From an uncultured Bacteroidales bacterium (lineage in GTDB: Bacteria; Bacteroidota; Bacteroidia; Bacteroidales; Paludibacteraceae), in assembly GCA_902780495.1 (NCBI GenBank), contig CACZFM010000004.1, positions 1 to 64,000 on the forward strand: DNA of 64,000 nucleotides. Reading direction: 5' to 3'. How positions within the stretch are numbered: the first letter of the stretch is position 1; every line of letters begins with the position of its first letter. The notes under the pieces were generated by a model that saw only the letters and a list, made by a program, of their open reading frames with translations, ran no database searches and was not told the DNA's origin. Of the stretch, positions 4,974-63,959 are shown piece after piece. Both the position numbers and the translations under genes were made by a program.

Positions 4974-6197
4974 ATGTATCTATACTTTTTTCTGGTACGT
5001 TTGGCAGCCTTGCTGGGCAATAAAAAAGCCCGCCTGCTGATACAAGGACAGAAAGACTGCCTGGCGGAACTGCAACAGGCAAACGATAAAGGCCTGATTG
5101 CACATAGCGAAAAAGAACAACTCATCTGGTTTCATGCCGCTTCGGTAGGCGAATTCGAACAGGCACGCCCTATCATCGAACGCCTGCGTAGCGAACACAA
5201 ACCCTGCAAGATTCTGCTGACATTCTTCTCGCCCTCCGGCTATGAGATGCGCAAGAACTATGACAAAGTCAACCGCGTACTCTATCTGCCTTTTGCCACC
5301 CGACGTAACGCCAAACTGTTCCTGGATGCCGTGCGACCCGATATGGCCATCTTTTCCAAATACGAGTTCTGGCCCGCCTACCTGAAAGAACTGAAACGCC
5401 GTTCCATCCCCACATATAGCATCTGCGCCATTTTCCGCAAATCGCAGTTGTTCTTCATGCCTTGGGGACGACCCTATCTGAATCTGCTCAAATGCTTCAC
5501 ACATATCTTCGTGCAAGACCGTGACTCTCTCAATCTGCTGCAGCGACACGGCATCACGGAATGTTCCGTGGCAGGTGACACGCGTTTTGACCGCGTACAT
5601 GCCATCAAAGAGCAAGGAAAGAACATCCCTCTCCTGAAAGAGTTCTGCGGCGCCGGTCCTGTGATTGTTGCCGGCAGTTCATGGCCTGCTGATGAGGCGT
5701 TGCTTGCCCGTTATATAGAAGAACACGAAGAAGTTCGCTTGGTGCTGGTGCCCCACGAAATAAACGAGGAACATCTGCACACTATCTTCCAGACTTTCCT
5801 CGGCCGCTATGTGCGTTACACGGAAGCAACCAAAGAAAGTATCACCCAATGCCGCATACTGGTGGTAGATACGATGGGTATGCTGTCCAGCCTGTACCGC
5901 TATGCCACCGTGGCATATATAGGTGGCGGATTCGGAGTCGGCATACACAACACACTGGAAGCAGCCGTGTACGGTATTCCCGTACTGTTTGGTCCCAACT
6001 ACAAGAAGTTCCGCGAAGCCAAAGGACTGATTGCCGCCGGTGCATCCACTTCGGTGAAAAACTACCGGCAACTGGCTGCGGCTCTGGATGAAGCACTGAT
6101 GCTGCATAAAGAAAAAGGTGAGATGGCAACACAATACGTGGAAAGCGAACTGGGTGCCACCGAACGCATTTATCAGGCACTCGGCTTGGAAAAATAA
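4974..6197 (+). CDS. kdtA: 3-deoxy-D-manno-octulosonic acid transferase
   Basis: This 407-residue protein transfers Kdo from CMP-Kdo to lipid A on the inner face of the cytoplasmic membrane, an early step of LPS core assembly. Residues 1-15 form the N-terminal membrane-associated helix. HAASVGEFEQARP (55-67) contains the likely catalytic Glu60 of the family. The middle shows SKYEFWPAYLKELKRR and the C-terminal GT-B half shows YIGGGFGVGIHNTLEAA, the nucleotide-sugar site. Length is normal for a GT30 family member. It leads a forward operon with hisS 30 bases downstream and has its own consensus promoter at 4903. kdsB, which makes CMP-Kdo, is elsewhere in the window (40538-41314). Confidence 0.95.
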   Translation: MYLYFFLVRLAALLGNKKARLLIQGQKDCLAELQQANDKGLIAHSEKEQLIWFHAASVGEFEQARPIIERLRSEHKPCKILLTFFSPSGYEMRKNYDKVNRVLYLPFATRRNAKLFLDAVRPDMAIFSKYEFWPAYLKELKRRSIPTYSICAIFRKSQLFFMPWGRPYLNLLKCFTHIFVQDRDSLNLLQRHGITECSVAGDTRFDRVHAIKEQGKNIPLLKEFCGAGPVIVAGSSWPADEALLARYIEEHEEVRLVLVPHEINEEHLHTIFQTFLGRYVRYTEATKESITQCRILVVDTMGMLSSLYRYATVAYIGGGFGVGIHNTLEAAVYGIPVLFGPNYKKFREAKGLIAAGASTSVKNYRQLAAALDEALMLHKEKGEMATQYVESELGATERIYQALGLEK

Positions 6198-6227
6198 CAA
6201 ATAACAGAAACGAAAAGAACAACATAT

Positions 6228-7553
6228 ATGGCACAAAAACCAACCATACCCAAAGGAACAAGAGATTTCGGACCACAGGAAATGGCCCGCAGAAACTATA
6301 TTTTCGACACCATCCGCAGCGTATTCCGCCTGTACGGTTTCCGCCAGATAGAGACACCTGCCATGGAGCAGATGAGTTCGCTGATGGGCAAATACGGCGA
6401 AGAAGGTGATAAACTGCTTTTCCGTATTCAGAACTCCGGCGAGAAAGCCGCAGAAGCCCCCGAAAAAGGTTTGCGCTACGACTTGACGGTTCCGTTTGCC
6501 CGCTATGTGGTGCAACATCGCGAAGAACTGTCATTCCCATTCCGCCGCTACCAGATACAGCCTGTTTGGCGCGCCGATCGTCCGCAGAAAGGGCGTTACC
6601 GCGAGTTTTATCAGTGCGATGTGGATGTGGTAGGAACCGATTCGCTGGTCAGCGAACTGGAACTGATTGAGATTGTCCGCGAAGTGTATCGCCGTTTCGG
6701 CATCCGTGTGAGTCTGCACATCAACAATCGCAAGATACTTGCCGGCATCGCAGAAGTGATTGGCGAACCCGACAAACTGATTGATGTGACGGTGGCCATT
6801 GACAAACTGGACAAGATAGGTCTTGAAAACGTTAATAAAGAACTCTTGGAACGCGGTCTGAGCCAAACGGCAGTGGACAAACTGCAACCCATTCTGGCCT
6901 TGTCCGGCACCAACGAAGAGAAATTGTCGGTTATTCGCAACCTGCTTTCGCAGAGTACTATCGGCACACAGGGCGTAGAAGAGATGGAAACTGTTTTCGC
7001 ACTTGCCAAAGATGCCATTCCTGCGGATAGCGACACCTTCCGCATCGAACTGGATTTGACACTTGCACGCGGACTGAACTATTACACCGGTGCCATCTTT
7101 GAGGTGAAAGCATTGGATGTGGCAATGGGAAGCATCACCGGAGGCGGGCGATATGATAATCTTACAGGTATTTTCGGGCTTCCGGGCGTGAGTGGGGTAG
7201 GTATATCCTTTGGCGCTGACCGCATCTACGATGTGCTGACCGAACTGAATCTCTATCCCGAAACGATGACGGAACAGACACAAGTGCTGTTTGCCACCTT
7301 TGGTGACGCAGAACTGCGATATGCTCTCGGTTGGGCGGCGACATTGCGTCAGGCCGGCATCAATACCGAAGTATATCCTGAACCTGCCAAAATGAAAAAA
7401 CAGATGGGCTATGCCGACAGCAACCGCATCCCGTTTGTGGCCATCGTGGGAGGTAATGAGATGGAAAGCCAAACCGTAATGCTGAAAGACATGCAAAGCG
7501 GCGAACAGAAAGCCGTTACAAAAGATGAACTCATAGCAGAACTGACAAAATAA
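6228..7553 (+). CDS. hisS: Histidine--tRNA ligase
   Basis: This class II aminoacyl-tRNA synthetase (441 residues) charges tRNA-His. The N-terminus, [19 protein letters not shown], is the family signature. Motif 2 is seen as [19 protein letters not shown] followed by [11 protein letters not shown]. The histidine-specific [14 protein letters not shown] lies near residues 281-294, and the motif 3 region [16 protein letters not shown] near 324-339. An anticodon-binding domain with [11 protein letters not shown] occupies the C-terminus. It is about 20 residues longer than E. coli HisRS, normal for Bacteroidota. It follows kdtA by 30 bases and precedes the DUF1599 gene by one base, so it lies inside an operon. 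Confidence 0.97.
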
Positions 7554-53179: not shown

Positions 53180-55834
53180 TTAGTAGAGGAATTTTGCCCA
53201 AATCTGTTTGCGGGTCAGTTTTTCCGATGTTACCAGTTTCACGGCATAAATCTGTCCTTTGGCCAAACCTTGGGTAGGAATAGATACGGAAACGGCCATT
53301 TCCGGCACCTCTACCTTTTCCACCAGTTGTCCGGCTGTGCTGTACACCAGCAGAAGGCGTTTGCTGCTGGTCGCTTGGGGCAGATAGGCGGTCACTTGTC
53401 CGTTTTGGTTCAGGCAGGTGAACTGTTTGCCGGTGTTGCTTGTGCCGGGAAGGGTACGGACTTTGGTGAGCGGACCGCGTGTGGTGCTACGGAGTTGGCA
53501 GCCTTTTTCTTCCTGGCAGGTCACGTAGTAATAGTATTCGGCCGAAGGAGTAAGTCCTGTTATCTCAAGTTCTGTCTGGTCATTGGGCAATTCGTTCGTA
53601 TTGCGGTATTGGGCAGTATAGTGACTGGTGATATTCACGCTATTGATGGTCGCTGCCGGTTTTCCTTTGGTCACAAAGAAACGGATGCGGTATTGGCTGT
53701 AGCCCTGTTCTTCCGTGAACGTGTAGGTTTTCTTGTTCGTTTTGGTCACGTTACGGATATTCAGGCTGTCGATGTTCACCCATTTTTGGTCGCTTTTGGC
53801 ATCAATAGCCATCACGCCTGCCGCATCGGCATTGTTCCAGTGTTGCGTGTAGTTTAGTTCCAGCGTACGAATTGTCAGTGGGAAGAAGTCTTGGTGATAG
53901 GTCTCACCGTGTTCGCTGAGTTTGCGACCCACTTTTGTGTTTTGGGTGCTGGTGTTTTGTTGGATGGAGAACACATGCAACGCATATTCTTCGGCATCTT
54001 CTTCTTCCTCCCAATGTGCCGTGAACGAGTAGGGCGTCACGTCCGTTGCATCCAGGGTCTGCACTTCGCCTATCAGTTGGGCGCGTTCAGAGTGCCCGTA
54101 CAAGGGATATTGGGTGCTCAGTTTCTCATTCTGTTGGATTACTTGCAGAATATCGCTTTCGGTCCGGCATTGTTGGGTTGTTTGGTAGCGGGCATAGATT
54201 TGGCGTTGGTAGGTGCCTTCTGCGCTGATAGTGTCTGTCAGTGTGTCGGTTGTCCATTTCACGCTGTCAAAACTCAGGGCTATCTTATGTCGTTGCGAAT
54301 AGATGTGTACCACTCTGTCTGTCAGTTGTTTGCCGCTTATTTCAAGGCTTGTCACAGAGTAGTACACCGCTTGTTTCTTGTCATTTACTTCGGTTTGCAG
54401 AGTATCTTTCCCGTTATTGGTAACATTGAAACCTGCGCCCATCGGACCATGCCGGAATATGATATTTGTCGTACCGTTTTCCGTGCGTATTTGTTGCAGG
54501 ATATTATTAGTCAGCTTGTTACCCTTGTTATCTTGCGGAGTGAAGGTGGTGATACGCCCTGTGCCGGGGTAGAGGTCGGCAGCGGAACTGTAATTATTGC
54601 CGTTGCCGGAGGCTTCCACGATGTCATAGCCCAACGGTGTGCTGTTGTTCGGCGTGTTGTTTTCCCATTTCTTGGCATCGAATGTGATATGGCTTATCAG
54701 CAGGCCTGTGCCGGGTAGGCAGTAGTTCGGTTGGTCCCATCCTACGCGTTGGCGGTTTTCTATGAGCCAGTATTCTTTCGGATTGGGGTTCTGCGCATTC
54801 ATGTTATGGGTCGTGGAGGCGATGAGGTACGCACGAGGACGATTGTCTGTCTCGGACGGAACATCGGTTATCGCGGGCAGTGTGTAATCGGCTATCTCCG
54901 TTAGTTGTGTAGGTGTCAGCCAGCCTACCATGAAACGCTCAAACGCCGAGTAACTGGGCGGAGTGCGGCCGCTGTTGTTGTAACTGCCTTGGCACATGAT
55001 GTCCCATTCGCCCACTGTATACGCCTCATCGTTTTTGGTGTCGTATAGGTCATCCAGACCGAGAACGTGGCTGAACTCGTGGCAGAATGTACCGATACCG
55101 CACATGTTCTTGCCGCTATGCCCGCGCAACTCTGATGTGCAGGCGTAGTCCCACAGCCAGCGTCTTTTGCCCGACTTGCCGTTGTAGTAGTATTTGATAT
55201 AACTCCCGTCTTTCTCGCTGAATACGTACGACCGGTGCGGCCAGATGGAGGTGGAAGGACCGCCTTCCGCTTCATTGAAGCCTGCGTAATAGATAAATAT
55301 GTTATCTACATCGCCATCGTCGTTCGCATCGTATTTGTCCCAGTCTATCACATGTTCCAGCGAATCGCATGCGTCTATCACCATCTGACGGACGTTCGCA
55401 TCGTAGTAGGCACAGGTGTTACCGAGGTTCACGGGACCATATACATCGAAGAACGGCTCGAACTGACCGTATGAACTGGCAACGAAGTAGTCGTGAGCCG
55501 AACCGGTTCCGTAGTTTTCGCTATAGCCGGGTTCGTTCAGCATTTTCGTGAAGGCCTCATTGGGGTTGGGTGTCACGAATTTGAGGTCGGAGAAGTTGAC
55601 CAGGATAACGAGGCTGTGTACTTGTCCTGTGGAAGGGAAGGTGTTATCTAGTTGGACGGCGGGACGTCGCGGCGTATCGCGTTGTATGGTGGAGGCTGCG
55701 GCAGTTATTTGTCCTTTTTCGTCAAGACGGTAGTGGTAGTATTCGTCTCCATACACGCCGCTACCGGGTTTAGCGATTACGGCATGGGCGGCAGTTACGG
55801 CCAGAAGGAGTGTGTAGGTTAGTATTTTGCGCAT
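53180..55834 (-). CDS. Secreted M6-family metallopeptidase
   Basis: This 884-residue protein has a signal peptide (1-21), then an M6 peptidase domain with the zinc site HEFSH (His252, Glu253, His256) in CHEFSHVLGLDDLYD. Before it lies HDYFVASSYGQFEPFFDVYG and NDDGDVDNIFIYYAGFNEAE, typical of Bacteroidota M6 domains with a calcium-type loop. About 450 residues of beta-sandwich and fibronectin-like repeats follow, and a final domain (residues about 800-884) resembling the C-terminal sorting domains of secreted Bacteroidota proteins. It probably degrades extracellular protein. It is transcribed alone from the promoter at 55914-55945 and ends in a strong terminator. Confidence 0.9.
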   Translation of the reverse strand: MRKILTYTLLLAVTAAHAVIAKPGSGVYGDEYYHYRLDEKGQITAAASTIQRDTPRRPAVQLDNTFPSTGQVHSLVILVNFSDLKFVTPNPNEAFTKMLNEPGYSENYGTGSAHDYFVASSYGQFEPFFDVYGPVNLGNTCAYYDANVRQMVIDACDSLEHVIDWDKYDANDDGDVDNIFIYYAGFNEAEGGPSTSIWPHRSYVFSEKDGSYIKYYYNGKSGKRRWLWDYACTSELRGHSGKNMCGIGTFCHEFSHVLGLDDLYDTKNDEAYTVGEWDIMCQGSYNNSGRTPPSYSAFERFMVGWLTPTQLTEIADYTLPAITDVPSETDNRPRAYLIASTTHNMNAQNPNPKEYWLIENRQRVGWDQPNYCLPGTGLLISHITFDAKKWENNTPNNSTPLGYDIVEASGNGNNYSSAADLYPGTGRITTFTPQDNKGNKLTNNILQQIRTENGTTNIIFRHGPMGAGFNVTNNGKDTLQTEVNDKKQAVYYSVTSLEISGKQLTDRVVHIYSQRHKIALSFDSVKWTTDTLTDTISAEGTYQRQIYARYQTTQQCRTESDILQVIQQNEKLSTQYPLYGHSERAQLIGEVQTLDATDVTPYSFTAHWEEEEDAEEYALHVFSIQQNTSTQNTKVGRKLSEHGETYHQDFFPLTIRTLELNYTQHWNNADAAGVMAIDAKSDQKWVNIDSLNIRNVTKTNKKTYTFTEEQGYSQYRIRFFVTKGKPAATINSVNITSHYTAQYRNTNELPNDQTELEITGLTPSAEYYYYVTCQEEKGCQLRSTTRGPLTKVRTLPGTSNTGKQFTCLNQNGQVTAYLPQATSSKRLLLVYSTAGQLVEKVEVPEMAVSVSIPTQGLAKGQIYAVKLVTSEKLTRKQIWAKFLY

Positions 55835-56229: not shown

Positions 56230-56456
56230 TTAGGTTGTTATTGGGTTATTATTGGGTGATTATTTGGTTATTATTAGGTTATTAAGCCAACGAAAAGCAG
56301 AAGAAAGCCTGCCAAAAGGAAGAAACACTGGTCCGACTAGTCTAACCAGAACACTACTCTCACTGGTTCAACAATAAAATCCAACCAAAAAATTAATTTT
56401 TTTTGCCCCCAACATTTGGTTATGTCAAAAAAATGTTGTACCTTTGCAGCGGATTT
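56230..56456 (+). repeat. Promoter-bearing dispersed element, copy 2
   Basis: Five 11-bp units of TTAGGTTATTA type (56230-56284) are followed by the core AGCCAACGAAAAGCAG and GAAAGCCTGCCA, an ACTAGT segment, CCAGAACACTA, GGTTCAACAATAAA and then a consensus promoter (56415-56446). It is the inverted relative of 42738-42995. The palindrome over the -33 box in copy 1 is absent here and replaced by a T-rich segment, so this copy would escape that regulator. Confidence 0.8.
56415..56446 (+). promoter_or_regulatory. Promoter of the cysteine-rich peptide operon
   Basis: TTTG at 56415-56418 and TACCTTTG at 56439-56446 are 20 nt apart, with TATGTCAAAAAAA in the spacer. The first gene starts 61 bases downstream of the -7 box. 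Confidence 0.9.
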
Positions 56457-56507: not shown

Positions 56508-56927
56508 ATGAATAGCAAAACACGGACATATCTGTTGGCATTGGGATGTTTAGTGCTGGGGGCTATGCTCTATGTTTGCTGCCGGATAAACATATTGTTC
56601 GTGGATTGGCTTCATTTGAACAATGCGTTGCATGTCCGCTTGGATGACGGAAATCCGTTCGTATATTGGGTGGTATATTGTTTGCCGGATGCGCTTTGGT
56701 ATATGGCATTATTGCTTGTGCAGCATCAAATACTGTTGAGAGATTCGTTGGTCAGTCGTTTGTGCGTATGGGTTGCCGTACTTCTTCCTTTCGGGATAGA
56801 GGGATTGCAGGCCTGTCACTGGATTGGTGGAACTTTCGATTGGTATGATATATTAACTTATTTATTAACCCTAATTCTATTTTGCTTATGTGTAAGAAAA
56901 AGTTTTTCCTCATTGGCCTTCAAGTAG
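56508..56927 (+). CDS. VanZ-like small membrane protein
   Basis: This 139-residue protein has about four membrane helices: residues 8-28, 50-68 (WVVYCLPDALWYMALLL), 80-98 and 114-132 (DILTYLLTLILFCLCV). The conserved points PDALWYMA, GIEGLQ and GTFDWYDILTYLL resemble VanZ-like proteins. It is the first gene of an operon and overlaps the next, encoding the cysteine-rich peptide, by 40 bases in another frame, so translation is likely coupled. A role in exporting, or giving immunity to, the peptide is possible but only inferred from the neighbourhood. Confidence 0.65.
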   Translation: MNSKTRTYLLALGCLVLGAMLYVCCRINILFVDWLHLNNALHVRLDDGNPFVYWVVYCLPDALWYMALLLVQHQILLRDSLVSRLCVWVAVLLPFGIEGLQACHWIGGTFDWYDILTYLLTLILFCLCVRKSFSSLAFK

Positions 56928-57145
56928 CCGTGCTGGCGGGATTTGTAATGATGGCTCTTGGTAGCGGCTCTAATGCTGCTGTGGTGAAAAGTACGAACCC
57001 CAAACGTATGGATCGTGGCGCGTGCGGACATGCCGATTATGTGCTCATGGGGCAGCATCCTTCGAAAGACGCTTGTTCTCAGGCTTGCCGAAATGCCGGC
57101 TTTGCCGATTTCTGTATGACCGGTGACAATTGCTTCTGCAAATAA
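56888..57145 (+). CDS. Secreted six-cysteine peptide with defensin-like spacing
   Basis: This 85-residue precursor starts MCKKKFFLIGLQ with a signal peptide or anchor helix (about 6-30). The mature ~50 residues contain six cysteines: C46, C63, C67, C76, C82 and C84, that is C-x16-C-x3-C-x8-C-x5-C-x-C. This is the order and spacing of the CS-alpha-beta fold of invertebrate and fungal defensins (CxxxC helix plus CxC strand; here ACSQAC and CFC). The conserved Gly of the GxC gamma-core is not in place (DFC instead), so the match is by cysteine framework only. An in-frame TTG at 56882 is an alternative start. A thioredoxin-like oxidoreductase gene follows after 6 bases, fitting a disulfide-rich product. 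Other cysteine-rich folds cannot be excluded. Confidence 0.7.
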   Translation: MCKKKFFLIGLQVAVLAGFVMMALGSGSNAAVVKSTNPKRMDRGACGHADYVLMGQHPSKDACSQACRNAGFADFCMTGDNCFCK

Positions 57146-57151
57146 ACTCGT

Positions 57152-58057
57152 ATGACGCGCCTGCAGAAAATAGCGGTTTATCTTGCGGGAATAGTGTTCC
57201 TGCTGTCTGGTATCGGAAAGGCGATGAATGTGATGTTGTTCCAGACATTGATTCATGGCTACGGTTTCCCGTATCTGGATTTACTGGCTCCGGTCATCGT
57301 ATGGGCGGAACTGGTACTTGCTTTCCTGCTTCTTGTGCAAGAGCGCGTTAAGACGGTTTCCTTGTTCTGCATAGGTTTGCTGTTGCTGTTTACGGCTGTT
57401 TATACGTTCGGCTATACCCGTCAGGGTATTACGGATTGCGGCTGCTTTGGCGTAATCCGCCTTCCGGATATTGCGCCGGTGTATGTGTATATCCGTAATA
57501 TCGTCCTGCTGGTGCTGCTGAATTTCATTTGGCTCACGGCAGAAGACAACAAATCAACATGGACTCGTCGCCGATGGCTGGTGTTCGGATGTTATATGGG
57601 GATTGCTCTCTTCCTGACAGGAATGACCTATCGCCCCAAAGCGTATCTGCCGGAGAAAGAACATCCGTTGGTAGGGCAGGTGCTCGCCAACACGCCTTTG
57701 GCGGATTATGTGCCTAACGAAGGTACGGCTTGTGTCCTGTGCTATTCTTACCGATGCAACCATTGCATGAATACGATGGAAAATTTCTTTGCCATGCAAC
57801 GCTATGGAAGAGTGGATACCATCGTGGCGGTGGCTGTTGTGCCGGACAATGATGAACAATTGGATTCCGTACGTACTGCCTTCCGGCAGTTCTACCCGCA
57901 AATAGGCGGACTGGAAATCGGGGCGGCAACGCTGCCCGACATTACGGCATTTCCCACTTCCTTGCTCGTCGAGAATGATACGATTAAGCAAGTGATGGTC
58001 GGGGAATTGCCAAACCCTTATTTTATTGAAACAAACAAAACTAAAATCACACACTAA
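57152..58057 (+). CDS. MauE/DoxX membrane protein fused to thioredoxin-like domain
   Basis: This 301-residue protein has four N-terminal membrane helices (about 7-130) of the MauE/DoxX type with DCGCFG at 95-100, a further helix near 143-158, and a periplasmic thioredoxin-like domain. The latter has two CxxC motifs, C194VLC197 and C202NHC205, and a cis-Pro loop FPTSLLVE at 267-274. It probably moves electrons between the membrane and secreted thiols, forming or reshuffling disulfides. It starts 6 bases after the six-cysteine peptide gene and overlaps the next gene by one base. The related protein at 8087 lacks the CxxC part. Confidence 0.8.
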   Translation: MTRLQKIAVYLAGIVFLLSGIGKAMNVMLFQTLIHGYGFPYLDLLAPVIVWAELVLAFLLLVQERVKTVSLFCIGLLLLFTAVYTFGYTRQGITDCGCFGVIRLPDIAPVYVYIRNIVLLVLLNFIWLTAEDNKSTWTRRRWLVFGCYMGIALFLTGMTYRPKAYLPEKEHPLVGQVLANTPLADYVPNEGTACVLCYSYRCNHCMNTMENFFAMQRYGRVDTIVAVAVVPDNDEQLDSVRTAFRQFYPQIGGLEIGAATLPDITAFPTSLLVENDTIKQVMVGELPNPYFIETNKTKITH

Positions 58058-58797
58058 TGAAAACATTCAATTATGCCCTTGTGGCAAGTGCTCTTGTATG
58101 CCTGATGAGCGTATTTTCGTCTTGTAAATCGACAGCCATCTATTATCAGATTTCGCAAACCAAACCGGTGGATGAAACAATCATGAAGAGCGATAACAAC
58201 GATCGTGGTTATTACTATGAGGATGAGAATTGCCGTATCTCTTACAATTTCTGGAGTGAGAACGGTGATGCAAGTTTTCAGGTAACCAATCTTACGGACG
58301 AAGTGCTGTATATCGTAAAAGACAAATGCTTCTTCATCAAGAATGGCGTATCGAACGATTATTTCCAGAATCGTGAATGGGTTGACCCTGTAAAGCCGGG
58401 ACTTACCACCACACATACCAAGGAAAAGAACCTGATAGGCATTGCTCCTCACGCATCCAAGAATATCGGAGAGTATGTCATTTATACGAAAGTGTTGGTG
58501 GATTGCGATTTGAATAGACAGCCCAAGAAGAATGAGCCGCAAACCATCGCATTCACGCTTGCCAATACGCCCGTTCAGTTCGGCAACTTTATTACCTACA
58601 AAGTGGGAGATAACGGTGCAGAAAAAGCAGTCAGCAATCTGTTCTATACCAGTCGTGTGACGAACTATAGAAAGGACGATATCTTTACAACGGAGCGTCA
58701 TGACAATTGCCCCAATGTATCAGATATAAAGACGGTAGAAGAACAGGTTTTGCGCTTCGCTCCTGCCACCGGCTATTACGTGACCTATGTGAAATAA
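58057..58797 (+). CDS. Hypothetical lipoprotein, last gene of peptide operon
   Basis: This 246-residue protein has a lipoprotein signal (MKTFNYALVASALVCLMSVF, lipobox SSC near residue 23). The mature part is mostly beta with FWSENGDASFQVTNLTDEVL and FFIKNGVSNDYFQNREWVD, reminiscent of immunoglobulin-like folds that fill Bacteroidota surface lipoproteins. I recognise no named family. It starts at the last base of the preceding stop (TAATG), so it is tightly coupled to the oxidoreductase gene and may act with the peptide, for example as a receptor or immunity factor. Confidence 0.7.
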   Translation: MKTFNYALVASALVCLMSVFSSCKSTAIYYQISQTKPVDETIMKSDNNDRGYYYEDENCRISYNFWSENGDASFQVTNLTDEVLYIVKDKCFFIKNGVSNDYFQNREWVDPVKPGLTTTHTKEKNLIGIAPHASKNIGEYVIYTKVLVDCDLNRQPKKNEPQTIAFTLANTPVQFGNFITYKVGDNGAEKAVSNLFYTSRVTNYRKDDIFTTERHDNCPNVSDIKTVEEQVLRFAPATGYYVTYVK

Positions 58798-58874: not shown

Positions 58875-58980
58875 GAGGGCCCTGCAAGGCTCTCTTGCCG
58901 TGTAAAAAAGCAAAAATATTCTCCCACCGCAAAAAAATCACTAAATTATTTGGTCAGTTCACAAAAAAGCACTACCTTTG
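58875..58980 (+). repeat. Direct repeat with promoter, copy 1
   Basis: About 106 bases beginning GAGGGCCCTGCAAGGCTCTC and ending with a promoter (TTTG 58949-58952, 20 nt, TACCTTTG 58973-58980). Copy 2 lies at 60518-60624 with about 90% identity. The opening GAGGGCC/GGCTCTC arms form a hairpin with one G-U pair. The promoter probably drives the ATPase gene at 59055. Confidence 0.85.
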
Positions 58981-59054: not shown

Positions 59055-60350
59055 ATGAAACGTAGGATGATGGAGGAATTGTGCCGATGGCGCATGAAAG
59101 CAGGGCGAATGCCGCTTGTCTTGAATGGGGCACGTCAAGTCGGGAAAACCTATATATTAGAGGAATTTGGCCGACAATATTATGCTAACACCGTGCGTTT
59201 TAACTTGGAGGCAGATGTGCGGGCGAGAATGGCTTTTGAAGAAGATTTAAATCCTCAAAACATTATTTTACAACTGGAAACCATTTCATCCCAACGCATT
59301 CTTCCGCAGCAAACCTTGTTGATTTTGGATGAGATTCAAGCCTCGGAACGTGCCTTGACTGCTTTGAAATCCTTTTGTGAACAGGCGCCGGATTATCATG
59401 TGTGTGCAGCAGGCAGTATGTTGGGGGTCGCAATTCATCGGGAGGAGTATTCATATCCCGTCGGAAAAGTAGATGAGTTGCAGCTCTTTCCGTTAGACTT
59501 TGAGGAATTCTTATGGGCGATGTCGAAACAAACGTTGGCAGAACAAATACGTTCACATGCTGATTCGAACGCCAAGATGCCACCGGCGTTGCATGAAGAT
59601 GCTCTTGCGCTTTGGCGGCAATATCTGGTAGTCGGAGGTATGCCGGCAGTGGTTGAGGAATACGCCAAGACAAACAGCACCGTACATATAGCGGATATTC
59701 AACAGCGCATCCTAAACGAGTATGTCGCAGATATGGCAAAATACGCTTCACCTGCTACATCTGTTAAAATTCGTGCCTGTTATAACTCAATACCTGCACA
59801 ATTGGCGAAAGAAAACCATAAATTCCAGTATAAAGTGGTACAACGGGGAGGCAGTGCCACAATCTTCGGTGAATCCATCGAATGGCTTAACTATGCCGGC
59901 ATTGTTCTTAAATGTCAGGAAGTGGAAAATGCGATTATACCCATCGCTGCTTATGTGGGACTCGGAGATTTCAAGTTGTATATGAGTGATGTCGGATTGT
60001 TAACTATAAAATCCGGTATGCCTCCATCGTTACTCCTTTCACCGACTCCGATTGACAATACTTTTATGGGGGCCATTGCAGAGAATTATGTGGCGCAAGC
60101 TTTGATGGCCAAACATATACCATTGCATTATTGGCGGAATAGTAATACGGCAGAATTGGATTTCCTGTGGCAGAAAGAAACGGAGATAATACCCATTGAA
60201 GTCAAAAAGGGTTTACATACTCGGGCAAAAAGCCTGAATCAGTTTCGGCAGACCTATCATCCGAAAGTGGCAGTTCGAATATCGCAAAAGAATTTTGGAT
60301 TGGACGAGGGAATACGTTCTATACCCTTCTACGCAGTATTCTGTATGTGA
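59055..60350 (+). CDS. AAA ATPase with DUF4143 domain
   Basis: This 431-residue protein has an AAA_14 ATPase domain with Walker A NGARQVGKTY (residues 24-33) and Walker B LLILDEIQ near 91-98, then an arginine-sensor region (CAAGSMLGVAIHREEYSYPVG), and a C-terminal DUF4143 domain with a nuclease-like end (ELDFLWQKETEIIPIEVKKG). The family is common in Bacteroidota accessory DNA; its cellular role is not known. The gene is single, driven by the promoter in repeat copy 1, and flanked by the second copy downstream, an arrangement consistent with mobility or duplication. Confidence 0.88.
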   Translation: MKRRMMEELCRWRMKAGRMPLVLNGARQVGKTYILEEFGRQYYANTVRFNLEADVRARMAFEEDLNPQNIILQLETISSQRILPQQTLLILDEIQASERALTALKSFCEQAPDYHVCAAGSMLGVAIHREEYSYPVGKVDELQLFPLDFEEFLWAMSKQTLAEQIRSHADSNAKMPPALHEDALALWRQYLVVGGMPAVVEEYAKTNSTVHIADIQQRILNEYVADMAKYASPATSVKIRACYNSIPAQLAKENHKFQYKVVQRGGSATIFGESIEWLNYAGIVLKCQEVENAIIPIAAYVGLGDFKLYMSDVGLLTIKSGMPPSLLLSPTPIDNTFMGAIAENYVAQALMAKHIPLHYWRNSNTAELDFLWQKETEIIPIEVKKGLHTRAKSLNQFRQTYHPKVAVRISQKNFGLDEGIRSIPFYAVFCM

Positions 60351-61110: not shown

Positions 61111-61677
61111 ATGAAGAAATTTCTCATTATCGCTTTGGCGATTGTATGTGGAGTCGCTGTTTCAGAGAGTTTTGCCCAAAAACCAAAGAAAGAGAAAATG
61201 ACAGAAGCAAAAATAGATAGTCTGCGCGCTGCACATGAACGCATTATGAATCAGATGGAAAATGATGGACCCCTACGCACAGGGCCTGCGCGGGATTTCG
61301 AACGAATTTCAAAGAAAGAGCTGCTGGAACTGTATTCTAAAATAATTCAATTAGAAAAACGGATTGACAAACTGGAGGCGTTGGCATCCCCCCCAAAATC
61401 CCCAACTATACCTTGCTTGGAAGAATCGGTTGATTCAGATCAATCTTATCATGGTTTTGGTGTTGGAAAAGGATATGATCAAAATATAGCTTCAACAAAT
61501 GCCGTAACTATAGCCATAGAAGAATTGACAAAGCGAATATTTCCATTATGTACGAATGAGAAAATGCAATTAGTAAGTAAAAATTGCCAAATAATTTGCC
61601 GTCAAATAGAAATACAAGATACAGGTTTTTATCAATGTTACGTTGTAATTTCCGTAAACAAGAATGACATACAATAA
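61111..61677 (+). CDS. Secreted LPP20-like protein with coiled coil
   Basis: This 188-residue protein has a signal peptide (1-22, ending ESFA) and an acidic/basic coiled-coil stretch (about 55-95, KKELLELYSKIIQLEKRIDKL). A C-terminal domain follows, beginning IPCLEESVDSDQSYHGFGVG and continuing through TNAVTIAIEELTKRI. The C-terminal part is similar in layout to the next protein (FTPCIEDSYDKPGEYMAGLG) and to LPP20/FlgT-like domains, where a G-x-G start precedes an amphipathic helix. It is the first of four co-directional envelope genes. Function is unknown. Confidence 0.65.
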   Translation: MKKFLIIALAIVCGVAVSESFAQKPKKEKMTEAKIDSLRAAHERIMNQMENDGPLRTGPARDFERISKKELLELYSKIIQLEKRIDKLEALASPPKSPTIPCLEESVDSDQSYHGFGVGKGYDQNIASTNAVTIAIEELTKRIFPLCTNEKMQLVSKNCQIICRQIEIQDTGFYQCYVVISVNKNDIQ

Positions 61678-61783
61678 TCGAAGCAATATTAACGGAAAAA
61701 GCCGAAACGCCGTCAAAATAGGTAGTAGGCAAAAACAATTATTAAAAACCGATGCCCGACGGGATATAAGGGGCGAAAACAGC

Positions 61784-62593
61784 ATGAAAAAAATCACATT
61801 GGTAGCAATGGCTCTCCTTTGCAGTGTAGCATTCACGGATTGTGCAGCTAAAAAGCCAGTTAAACAAACTCCCAAAACAGATCCTCAGCAGGCTATGATA
61901 GACAGTTTGCGCAAGGAGGCTGAAATTCGTCGTTTAAAAGCAGAAATTGAAGCTCAAGAAGAAGATGCAAAATTAGAGCGTGATGCTAAACGAGCAGAAA
62001 AGGTAGCTGATATGGAAATAGCAAAACTAAGAGCTGCTAATGCCAAAAAAGCAATCTCAAAACGGATGGGTCAGGACCTGTTTACTCCGTGTATTGAAGA
62101 TAGTTACGATAAGCCGGGTGAGTATATGGCAGGTCTTGGAATTGTTGAGAATGAAGATGAACGTGGATTAGCAGCAGTAAAAGCCAATCATAATGCTATT
62201 GAGAATATCGCGTCGCGGTACATAGGCGCAATTAAAAATGGAATGTCTTTGTATTATAAAGATGTAACTCCACGTTCCCGTGATAAAGCCAAAGAAAATG
62301 AGAACGAAGGCAATGTGGAAGCTGTGGGAATGAAAGTAATTGAGAAATATGCAAATACTGTATGTGGTCCTATTTTTGAGCAAGACGATATGGGTGGATA
62401 TACATGCTATGTTGCTATTCATGTTCCTTTAAAGAATGTAGTTAATGAGACTATTGATGAATTGGGCATTATCCAAACGGATGCAGATCGTCAACGTTTT
62501 CGTGATTATATGAACCAAGAACTGGAAAAACAAGCACAAGCTGCCTCCGCAGAAAAAGCAGAATTGGAAAAGATGCGTGAAGAGCTAAAATAA
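61784..62593 (+). CDS. LPP20-like lipoprotein with coiled coil
   Basis: The start at 61784 gives 269 residues and a lipoprotein signal (MKKITLVAMALLCSVAFTDC, lipobox cysteine at 20); the longer frame from 61664 overlaps the previous gene. A charged coiled coil (about 35-105, rich in Lys, Glu and Arg) leads to the LPP20-like domain starting FTPCIEDSYDKPGEYMAGLG. A second coiled coil ends the protein (EKAELEKMREELK). It is a longer paralogue of the protein encoded at 61111, with the same Thr/Ile-Pro-Cys-Ile/Leu-Glu-Glu/Asp-Ser motif. Confidence 0.7.
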   Translation: MKKITLVAMALLCSVAFTDCAAKKPVKQTPKTDPQQAMIDSLRKEAEIRRLKAEIEAQEEDAKLERDAKRAEKVADMEIAKLRAANAKKAISKRMGQDLFTPCIEDSYDKPGEYMAGLGIVENEDERGLAAVKANHNAIENIASRYIGAIKNGMSLYYKDVTPRSRDKAKENENEGNVEAVGMKVIEKYANTVCGPIFEQDDMGGYTCYVAIHVPLKNVVNETIDELGIIQTDADRQRFRDYMNQELEKQAQAASAEKAELEKMREELK

Positions 62594-62606
62594 CAACTGC
62601 GTAACA

Positions 62607-63029
62607 ATGCGAAAATTAATTATATTTATTGGTTTATTCCTAATGCCCGCTTTCGGGTGGGCATTAGGAATGCCCAAATGGATAAAGCACTTACCCAAAG
62701 CTGGTAATGATACCTATTACTATCGTGTGACAAAAGCCGAAGGATCAACTTATGGTGATGCTTACGTAAAGGCCTTCTCAATGGCTATATTAGAAAGTCA
62801 GTGGAAATTAGGTGTAAAGGTTACTAAAACGGATGATACCCATACTATAGAGCAATCCCTACAAAAAGACCTCACCCTAAAATCCAGTAATATGAATCTG
62901 CCAATGAATAAGGTATGTGAGTATGAACAAGCGAGTCCTAATGGCGGAATTATTCTTTACTGCTTATGGCAAGTGGCTTGTTATGGCAATGTTAAAGCTG
63001 AATTTGAAAACTATTTAGATTGTGAATAG
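62607..63029 (+). CDS. Small secreted protein related to the next gene
   Basis: This 140-residue protein has a signal peptide (1-19, ending FGWA) and a single domain: PKWIKHLPKAGNDTYYYRVT, then GSTYGDAYVKAFSMAI, MNKVCEYEQASPNGG and LYCLWQVACYGNVKAEF. The same order (GEGSTQREALNQAI, INKVCEFPVKNPNG, YILCQVAVAGNV) occurs in the next protein, so the two are paralogues. The pattern of start, helix and LPC-like strand again recalls LPP20/FlgT-type domains. It lies 13 bases after the lipoprotein gene and 3 before the next. Confidence 0.65.
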   Translation: MRKLIIFIGLFLMPAFGWALGMPKWIKHLPKAGNDTYYYRVTKAEGSTYGDAYVKAFSMAILESQWKLGVKVTKTDDTHTIEQSLQKDLTLKSSNMNLPMNKVCEYEQASPNGGIILYCLWQVACYGNVKAEFENYLDCE

Positions 63030-63032
63030 AGT

Positions 63033-63959
63033 ATGAAAAAGTTATTACTTTTAGTGGTTTTCGGTAGCCTTGTAGTATCTGCTTCTGCAAAACTTACAAG
63101 AAAACCTACTTTTCGTCCAGATTGGACTTTCGAAGCTCCTGAATCTCATGAGACATCTTTTCTTTATGTTGTTGAACATGGAGAAGGAAGTACACAAAGA
63201 GAAGCACTTAATCAAGCAATTGGAAGAGTGTTTCAGAGTACAGCCAATCGTATAGGCCAGTTCGTTTCGACAGATGAGATAAATCGCGCAGTGCAAGCAG
63301 GGACTGATTATGAGGTTGTTTCTCGCAAGATGAAAGTACCAATAAATAAGGTATGTGAGTTCCCTGTGAAAAATCCTAATGGGAATTGGACGATGTATAT
63401 TCTTTGTCAAGTTGCGGTTGCTGGCAATGTTGTGCCGGAATTTAAACCATACAATGGATGTACGAATCATGAAAGATTTGACGAATTAGAGGCTATTTGG
63501 AACAAGCAGGTTCAAGATTCTATTAATGCAGTAAACAAAGTTAACAAAAAATCAAACGCTCGCTCACTTGTCGCATCTACATTTATTCCCGGTATGGGCC
63601 AGATGTTAAAAAAACAAGGTGGAAGTGGCGCTGCATTTTTGCTTAGTGAAGTGGCGCTTTTTGGAGGTGGTACAGTTTGCTATTTTTTAGGTCAAGAGCA
63701 ACTCAAGAAAATGAAGGCGGTTGGTACATCTTATGAGGATTATAAAACCGCAAAAAATATGAAAAATACATTAGATATTGCTATGTATGCAGCATTCGGT
63801 GCCGGTGTAGCTGTTCATGTTGGAAATATGGTTCACGCATGGGTGGTAGAGGATAAAAATCTTAAACAAAATTTCTCTTTCGTACCGGCGATTATTCCAT
63901 CGAATGAATATTCAATACCCTCTTACGCTTATGGTGCAGGAATTCAATTTAAATTCTAA
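63033..63959 (+). CDS. LPP20-like domain fused to DUF5683-like membrane part
   Basis: This 308-residue protein has a signal peptide (1-18). Residues 20-140 repeat the domain of the previous protein, and a linker with NKKSNARSLVASTFIPG leads to a membrane part (about 180-275, with GSGAAFLLSEVALFGGGTVCYFLG and DIAMYAAFGAGVAVHVGNMV). The latter resembles DUF5683-type domains, in which SxxxPGxGQ precedes two to three helices (here STFIPGMGQMLKKQGG). It ends YAYGAGIQFKF, an outer-membrane-like end. It would sit at the envelope and could anchor the set of small proteins encoded upstream. Confidence 0.65.
   Translation: MKKLLLLVVFGSLVVSASAKLTRKPTFRPDWTFEAPESHETSFLYVVEHGEGSTQREALNQAIGRVFQSTANRIGQFVSTDEINRAVQAGTDYEVVSRKMKVPINKVCEFPVKNPNGNWTMYILCQVAVAGNVVPEFKPYNGCTNHERFDELEAIWNKQVQDSINAVNKVNKKSNARSLVASTFIPGMGQMLKKQGGSGAAFLLSEVALFGGGTVCYFLGQEQLKKMKAVGTSYEDYKTAKNMKNTLDIAMYAAFGAGVAVHVGNMVHAWVVEDKNLKQNFSFVPAIIPSNEYSIPSYAYGAGIQFKF

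Follow-up and report, generated by a model that had tools for sequence, protein, structure and literature searches.

Bacterial cis-defensins have been reported from Actinobacteria, Proteobacteria (Myxobacteria among them) and Acidobacteria (PMC11561630); Dash et al. (2019), as cited in that paper, describe such peptides from many phyla. Skillet lipocone proteins are marked by ExxQ in H3, an Asp in H2 and, in addition to the Asp of H4, another Asp three residues ahead of it. The gene that follows Skillet-1 has Ser in place of the lipobox Cys, with lipidation on this Ser a prediction, and for VanZ relatives an action on lipid head groups is predicted (PMC12419801). MauE proteins with a thioredoxin partner occur in candidate RiPP clusters, for which disulfide formation has been speculated (PMC7794033).

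We analyzed an operon in a 64-kb stretch of DNA (the window) from a gut bacterium of the Bacteroidales. Its coordinates, reading frames, gene overlaps and cysteine spacing agree with those in the initial annotation (Table 1). The Bacteroidetes-type promoter pattern is expected 1.3 times per strand in 64 kb, and the copy listed lies about 60 bases upstream of the VanZ-like gene, whose end shares 40 bases with the peptide gene. The four-gene order, whose conservation the initial annotation had left to be checked, is conserved in part: the VanZ-like gene, one or more peptide genes and the MauE-thioredoxin (MauE-Trx) gene keep their order at ten loci, whereas the lipoprotein has tblastn homologues at only two other loci, L148 (also L072) and L152, and is therefore not counted as a core part. 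Directly 3' of the operon lies a gene for an AAA_14/DUF4143 ATPase (59055-60350), which has a separate TTTG-N20-TACCTTTG promoter (58949-58980). Elsewhere in the window, the minus strand (53180-55834) encodes a Peptidase M6 protein whose C-terminus weakly matches a sorting domain, and four consecutive small proteins of no assigned type, either exported or lipoproteins, occupy 61111-63959.

Table 1. Features of the operon, in window coordinates.
Feature	Position	Strand	Basis
Promoter, Bacteroidetes-type TTTG-N20-TACCTTTG	56415..56446	+	Pattern scan
VanZ-like, probably Skillet-type lipocone, membrane protein, 139 aa	56508..56927	+	Profile-profile match, invariant residues
Exported peptide (proposed), 85 aa	56888..57145	+	Conserved in 10 loci
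Leader with serine lipobox, ending MMALG-S; Ser26 codon 56963-56965	56888..56965	+	Leader alignment
Predicted CS-alpha-beta-like domain, six cysteines	57020..57142	+	Alignment, predicted fold, profile search
MauE/DoxX membrane domain fused to thioredoxin-like domain	57152..58057	+	Pfam MauE; motifs in seven homologues
Lipoprotein, canonical lipobox, accessory, near subclade only	58057..58797	+	tblastn

The six cysteines of the peptide have the exact spacing C-x16-C-x3-C-x8-C-x5-C-x-C, a pattern with a single occurrence across all six frames of the window, where 0.05 are expected per 64 kb. The peptide is single-copy in its genome (2.03-Mb assembly, 97% complete) and gave no match in Pfam or NCBIfam. 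Single-sequence searches of genome and viral contigs and profile searches of viral contigs returned no relatives, and only weak matches came from a plasmid search and, besides the window itself, from a phylum-wide search with a two-row profile. By searching with MauE-Trx and peptide profiles, we found the VanZ-like/peptide/MauE-Trx order in seven of 178 genomes of the genus, with two tandem peptides at one locus. The six-Cys family thus comprises 11 peptides at ten loci, the window included, with a VanZ-like gene before and a MauE-Trx fusion after. In an alignment of nine peptides, identity to the window peptide falls as low as 27%, and the six cysteines, whose conservation the initial annotation had left to be checked, and one Gly are the only invariant residues. 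The family member at L144 (5357-5641) has a seventh Cys immediately ahead of Cys2.

The AF2 model of the window domain, run with 17 sequences, has the order strand-helix-strand-strand (E12-16, H20-30, E35-38, E41-44; pLDDT 83, pTM only 0.57), and the helix with C-x3-C is predicted to pack on the strands with C-x-C. This beta-alpha-beta-beta prediction, with CS-alpha-beta peptides as its top structural matches in the PDB, is consistent with the fold originally proposed from the cysteine spacing. The first 22 Foldseek matches are plant and insect defensins, scorpion and centipede toxins and related cystine-dense peptides, with E-values of at least 0.98; no Foldseek match of any kind falls below E 0.9. 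A structural aligner matched the domain to 6atm (Z 5.0, rmsd 1.8, 37 aligned), VIA Z scores of up to 5 being under the level counted as clear, and gave the PAN-domain lectin SML-2 and Wsc1 scores about equal to those of the CS-alpha-beta matches. As a single sequence, the window peptide had no detectable homology to known defensins, and the nine-peptide profile, searched against all PDB sequences, returned CS-alpha-beta peptides in the first 13 rows (best E 0.0038, ZmD32). Partial cysteine loss in three sequences fits the pairing 1-4/2-5/3-6 best among the fifteen pairings (8 of 9 informative co-loss observations; runner-up 6), which is indirect evidence for the disulfide pattern of CS-alpha-beta defensins.

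Homologues that lack the cysteines gave a similar result. The Cys-free L159 is predicted by AF2 to have the same elements in the same order (pLDDT 87, pTM 0.65); plant defensins lead its matches in the structural aligner (Z 3.8, rmsd 2.4, 40 aligned) and are intermixed with RRM-type folds in Foldseek. Ala, Val, Leu or Ile occupies all six cysteine places in the Cys-free proteins, as would be expected if the cystines of the six-Cys versions were buried and structural. A SPOR (PF05036) origin of the Cys-free domain, prompted by eye and by a weak match to the CwlC fold (Z 2.3, rmsd 2.4, 39 aligned), found no support in profile comparison (hhalign probability 4), and the matches of the Cys-free profile in the PDB, mainly to FabG over 23 residues, were taken as chance. 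Together, the fold prediction, structural matches, hydrophobic replacement of Cys and cysteine co-loss support a CS-alpha-beta-like domain in the window peptide. The fold, framework and pairing results do not show common descent with defensins. The Gly two residues before Cys4 (GxC, gamma-core) is absent from all 11 cores, which have D, S, A, K or Y there, in accord with its reported absence from the window peptide. Antimicrobial CS-alpha-beta defensins typically have a net positive charge; the core charge is -1 in the window and ranges from -1 to +4 over the 11 cores, 6 of which are at or below zero. The missing GxC and the lack of net positive charge are the reasons that we call the domain CS-alpha-beta-like and do not file it as a defensin, membership in that group not being shown. 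The caution about defensin homology in the initial annotation remains justified, because the profile match rests on the cysteines and GxC is absent.

Searching genome contigs for the VanZ-like family gave 30 Bacteroidales loci, whose downstream genes, inspected singly, encode five kinds of protein. Ten loci, including the window, carry the six-Cys domain (eleven peptides); L159, L160, L161, L164 and L166 have the domain without the six cysteines (the domain of L164 has one unrelated Cys); L152 has a partial domain that keeps Cys1, 4 and 5; L150, L151 and L153 have a DnaJ-like CxxCxGxG or similar domain; and the remaining kind has a short tail or low-complexity end in place of a domain, with leader and short tail at L141, L142, L145, L154, L158, L165 and L167. 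The CxxC zinc-ribbon-like or DnaJ-like domains of L150 (5360-5659), L151 (5360-5605) and L153 (5806-6246) sit on serine-lipobox-type leaders. A Cloacin match of L162 falls in a Gly-rich linker and was discarded, and a weak match of L161 to DUF6520 (E 0.04) is confined to the signal segment.

Cys-free and six-Cys versions share one operon slot in living Bacteroidales, and the cysteines and MauE-Trx come and go together. MauE-Trx is present at 10/10 six-Cys loci compared to 0/16 assessable other VanZ-like loci (Fisher 1.9e-7, kinship ignored) and, within the one domain family, at 10/10 six-Cys loci compared to 0/5 others (Fisher 3.3e-4, kinship ignored). L164 was left out of the Fisher test because its contig stops 393 bases after the VanZ-like gene. 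Near neighbors in the VanZ-like tree differ in both traits (L143/L145, L140/L141/L142, and the window with L148/L152). The tree has three independent pairs on well-supported branches (six on the best tree), and all three scored agree, a number too small for a sign test to reach significance. The linkage to an oxidoreductase gene was thus found to be conserved at all ten six-Cys loci and absent where the cysteines are absent. Two relatives lie outside the VanZ-like set: G070 keeps Cys2, 3, 5 and 6 and adjoins a thioredoxin-like gene with CKYC, and G194, which has Cys2, Cys5, one new Cys and a canonical Cys lipobox, is not directly preceded by a VanZ-like gene and shows no oxidoreductase on its 5.2-kb contig. 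At three loci that lack the domain (L141, L142 and L145), a gene for a secreted FGE-sulfatase-like protein (PF03781; about 5536-6344) stands in the place of MauE-Trx.

The VanZ-like protein itself had no Pfam or NCBIfam match, and nothing in the window genome exceeded the curated score of Pfam VanZ (PF04892). A single profile-profile comparison with Pfam VanZ members gave a probability of 86 (E 5e-6). D61, E98, Q101 and D114 are present in 29/29 homologues and D111 in 28/29, so that the Skillet signature (ExxQ, DxxD and the extra Asp) is present, with a helix assignment that we infer. In the lipobox at the end of the peptide leader, the Cys position is Ser in 26 of 28 relatives and Cys in two, L148 and L162, which are still accompanied by a VanZ-like gene. 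The residue ahead of this position is Gly (15), Ala (10) or Ser (3), and before the lipobox position a Phe is invariant and an Ala is found in 27/28 leaders. Because the VanZ-like protein and the leader stay constant while the downstream domain varies, the former most likely acts on the latter. The flanking genes had been assigned to export or immunity; a Skillet-type VanZ-like protein, followed by a constant serine-lipobox leader whatever the domain, speaks against this assignment, and from its sequence the protein probably fits the Skillet lipocone group as an anchoring enzyme. The Skillet signature and the Ser lipobox match the published Skillet-1/serine-lipobox operon, and the peptide is therefore probably a membrane-tethered domain rather than a freely secreted bacteriocin. 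Of the secreted peptide described initially, we retain export via the N-terminal segment as a proposal and consider free release unlikely, since the serine lipobox points to tethering.

The oxidoreductase matches Pfam MauE (PF07291) with E 4.7e-19 (69.4 bits compared to the curated 27), and BT_3928 and HvfX are the nearest named families. The MauE-thioredoxin fusion was correctly recognized at the outset, but its two CxxC motifs are not the conserved set: the motifs invariant in seven homologues are a C-x-C in the MauE part (DCGCFG) and, in the Trx part, a C-x-H-C (codons 57755-57766), whereas the second CxxC of the window, CVLC, is not conserved. The enzyme could alternatively be a reductase or isomerase. 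A second, more distant MauE-Trx group in the same genus (L114-L136) adjoins unrelated small canonical lipoproteins with C-x-C...C...C, one of which was checked and had no Pfam match; these are a possible second substrate family. A small Cys lipoprotein adjoins 19/23 of these loci compared to 0/60 control loci, indicating that MauE-Trx beside a small Cys protein is a recurrent arrangement.

We lean slightly toward a reading in which the operon produces a small disulfide-stabilized display domain and anchors it. The peptide would be exported through its N-terminal hydrophobic segment, and the VanZ-like protein would recognize the constant leader and join Ser26, which replaces the usual lipobox Cys, to a lipid that keeps the domain tethered to the membrane. 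MauE-Trx would oxidize the six cysteines into 1-4/2-5/3-6 disulfides that give the CS-alpha-beta-like fold, and the domain would probably bind a ligand at the surface of the cell or in its periplasm. The lack of a VanZ-like gene directly before G194, with its Cys lipobox, favors this reading; the presence of that gene at the Cys-lipobox loci L148 and L162, and the three cysteines of G194 with no adjacent oxidoreductase, weigh against it. Ser26 lipidation is predicted by this analysis, and it is likewise a prediction for Skillet-1 (PMC12419801). Much more tentatively, the CS-alpha-beta framework may have arisen here independently of eukaryotic defensins: a beta-alpha-beta-beta domain without disulfides would have gained three of them together with a dedicated oxidase, the resulting product being displayed on a lipid linked through serine.

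It seems unlikely that the peptide instead serves a VanZ-like envelope-lipid enzyme as its small membrane subunit or its regulator, the leader being a transmembrane helix that stays uncleaved and the domain just a sensing or stabilizing cap. No pair other than VanZ-like gene and leader is constant, seven loci encode the leader with a short tail only, and lipid head groups are the predicted target of VanZ relatives (PMC12419801), but Ser and Cys exchange precisely at the lipobox position, and cargo better explains the domain diversity. We consider it distinctly unlikely that the peptide is a secreted defensin-like bacteriocin, released after signal cleavage to kill competitors, with the VanZ-like protein for immunity and MauE-Trx for folding. 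Retention of the VanZ-like gene with Cys-free, zinc-ribbon or domain-less versions, the lack in the operon of genes for an ABC transporter or protease like those of actifensin, the anchoring suggested by the serine lipobox, and the missing GxC and charge range of the 11 cores all weigh against a bacteriocin, even though the peptide's sporadic distribution and tandem copies would be in keeping with one and the framework and predicted fold are shared with antimicrobial bacterial defensins (PMC6989792).

The remaining alternatives concern the cysteines and the domain. MauE/DoxX proteins are linked to redox chains, BT_3928 and HvfX being the nearest named families of the fusion, and the peptide could be a redox partner of MauE-Trx (an electron carrier or thiol sensor) without structural disulfides. 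The invariance of all six cysteines in a three-disulfide framework, and their replacement by Ala, Val, Leu or Ile in the similar predicted fold of Cys-free homologues, make this improbable. Slightly more improbable is a shortened WSC/PAN-type domain: SML-2 (Z 4.7-4.8, rmsd 1.9, 44 aligned) and Wsc1 (Z 4.1, rmsd 3.0, 44 aligned) stand alongside the CS-alpha-beta matches, but Pfam gives no WSC or PAN match, and CS-alpha-beta peptides alone fill the first 13 rows of the PDB-sequence profile search.

If the display-domain reading holds, these loci are a natural experiment in which a defensin-type fold gains or loses disulfides together with their enzyme, in Bacteroidota. The Ser/Cys exchange at the lipobox provides an independent sequence test of the proposed Skillet serine lipidation, and the VanZ-like gene and peptide form a compact two-gene enzyme/substrate pair for assaying it.

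None of the papers compared describes a CS-alpha-beta-like domain combined with a serine lipobox, Cys-free homologues and an oxidoreductase that co-occurs. The bacterial defensin surveys compared include none from Bacteroidota; an earlier report in Dash et al. (2019) is possible. The plant defensins ZmD32 and PhD1 are the best sequence-profile match in the PDB (E 0.0038) and top Foldseek match, but plant defensins have extra cysteines and GxC, and homology to them is not shown, since the profile match leans on cysteines. Bacterial cis-defensins share the C...C-x3-C...C...C-x-C framework and predicted fold (PMC6989792, PMC8819291, PMC11561630), and those of class V also have the third strand. 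By contrast, GxC is present in all cis-defensins of PMC11561630, whose hosts are Proteobacteria, Actinobacteria and Acidobacteria, and in none of the Bacteroidales family described here, which alone has a serine lipobox and Cys-free relatives. The Skillet-1 operon (PMC12419801) likewise combines ExxQ, DxxD and the extra Asp with a following serine-lipobox gene for a variable extracellular domain; its example domains are concanavalin, jelly roll, OB, Ig and propeller folds, and its main text does not mention defensins or disulfides. Finally, MauE/MauD in methylamine dehydrogenase maturation and the MauE-bearing candidate RiPP clusters (PMC7794033) resemble this locus in having a MauE-type protein, a thioredoxin partner and a Cys-rich substrate, whereas the window has both enzyme parts in one protein and a small, putatively CS-alpha-beta-like substrate.
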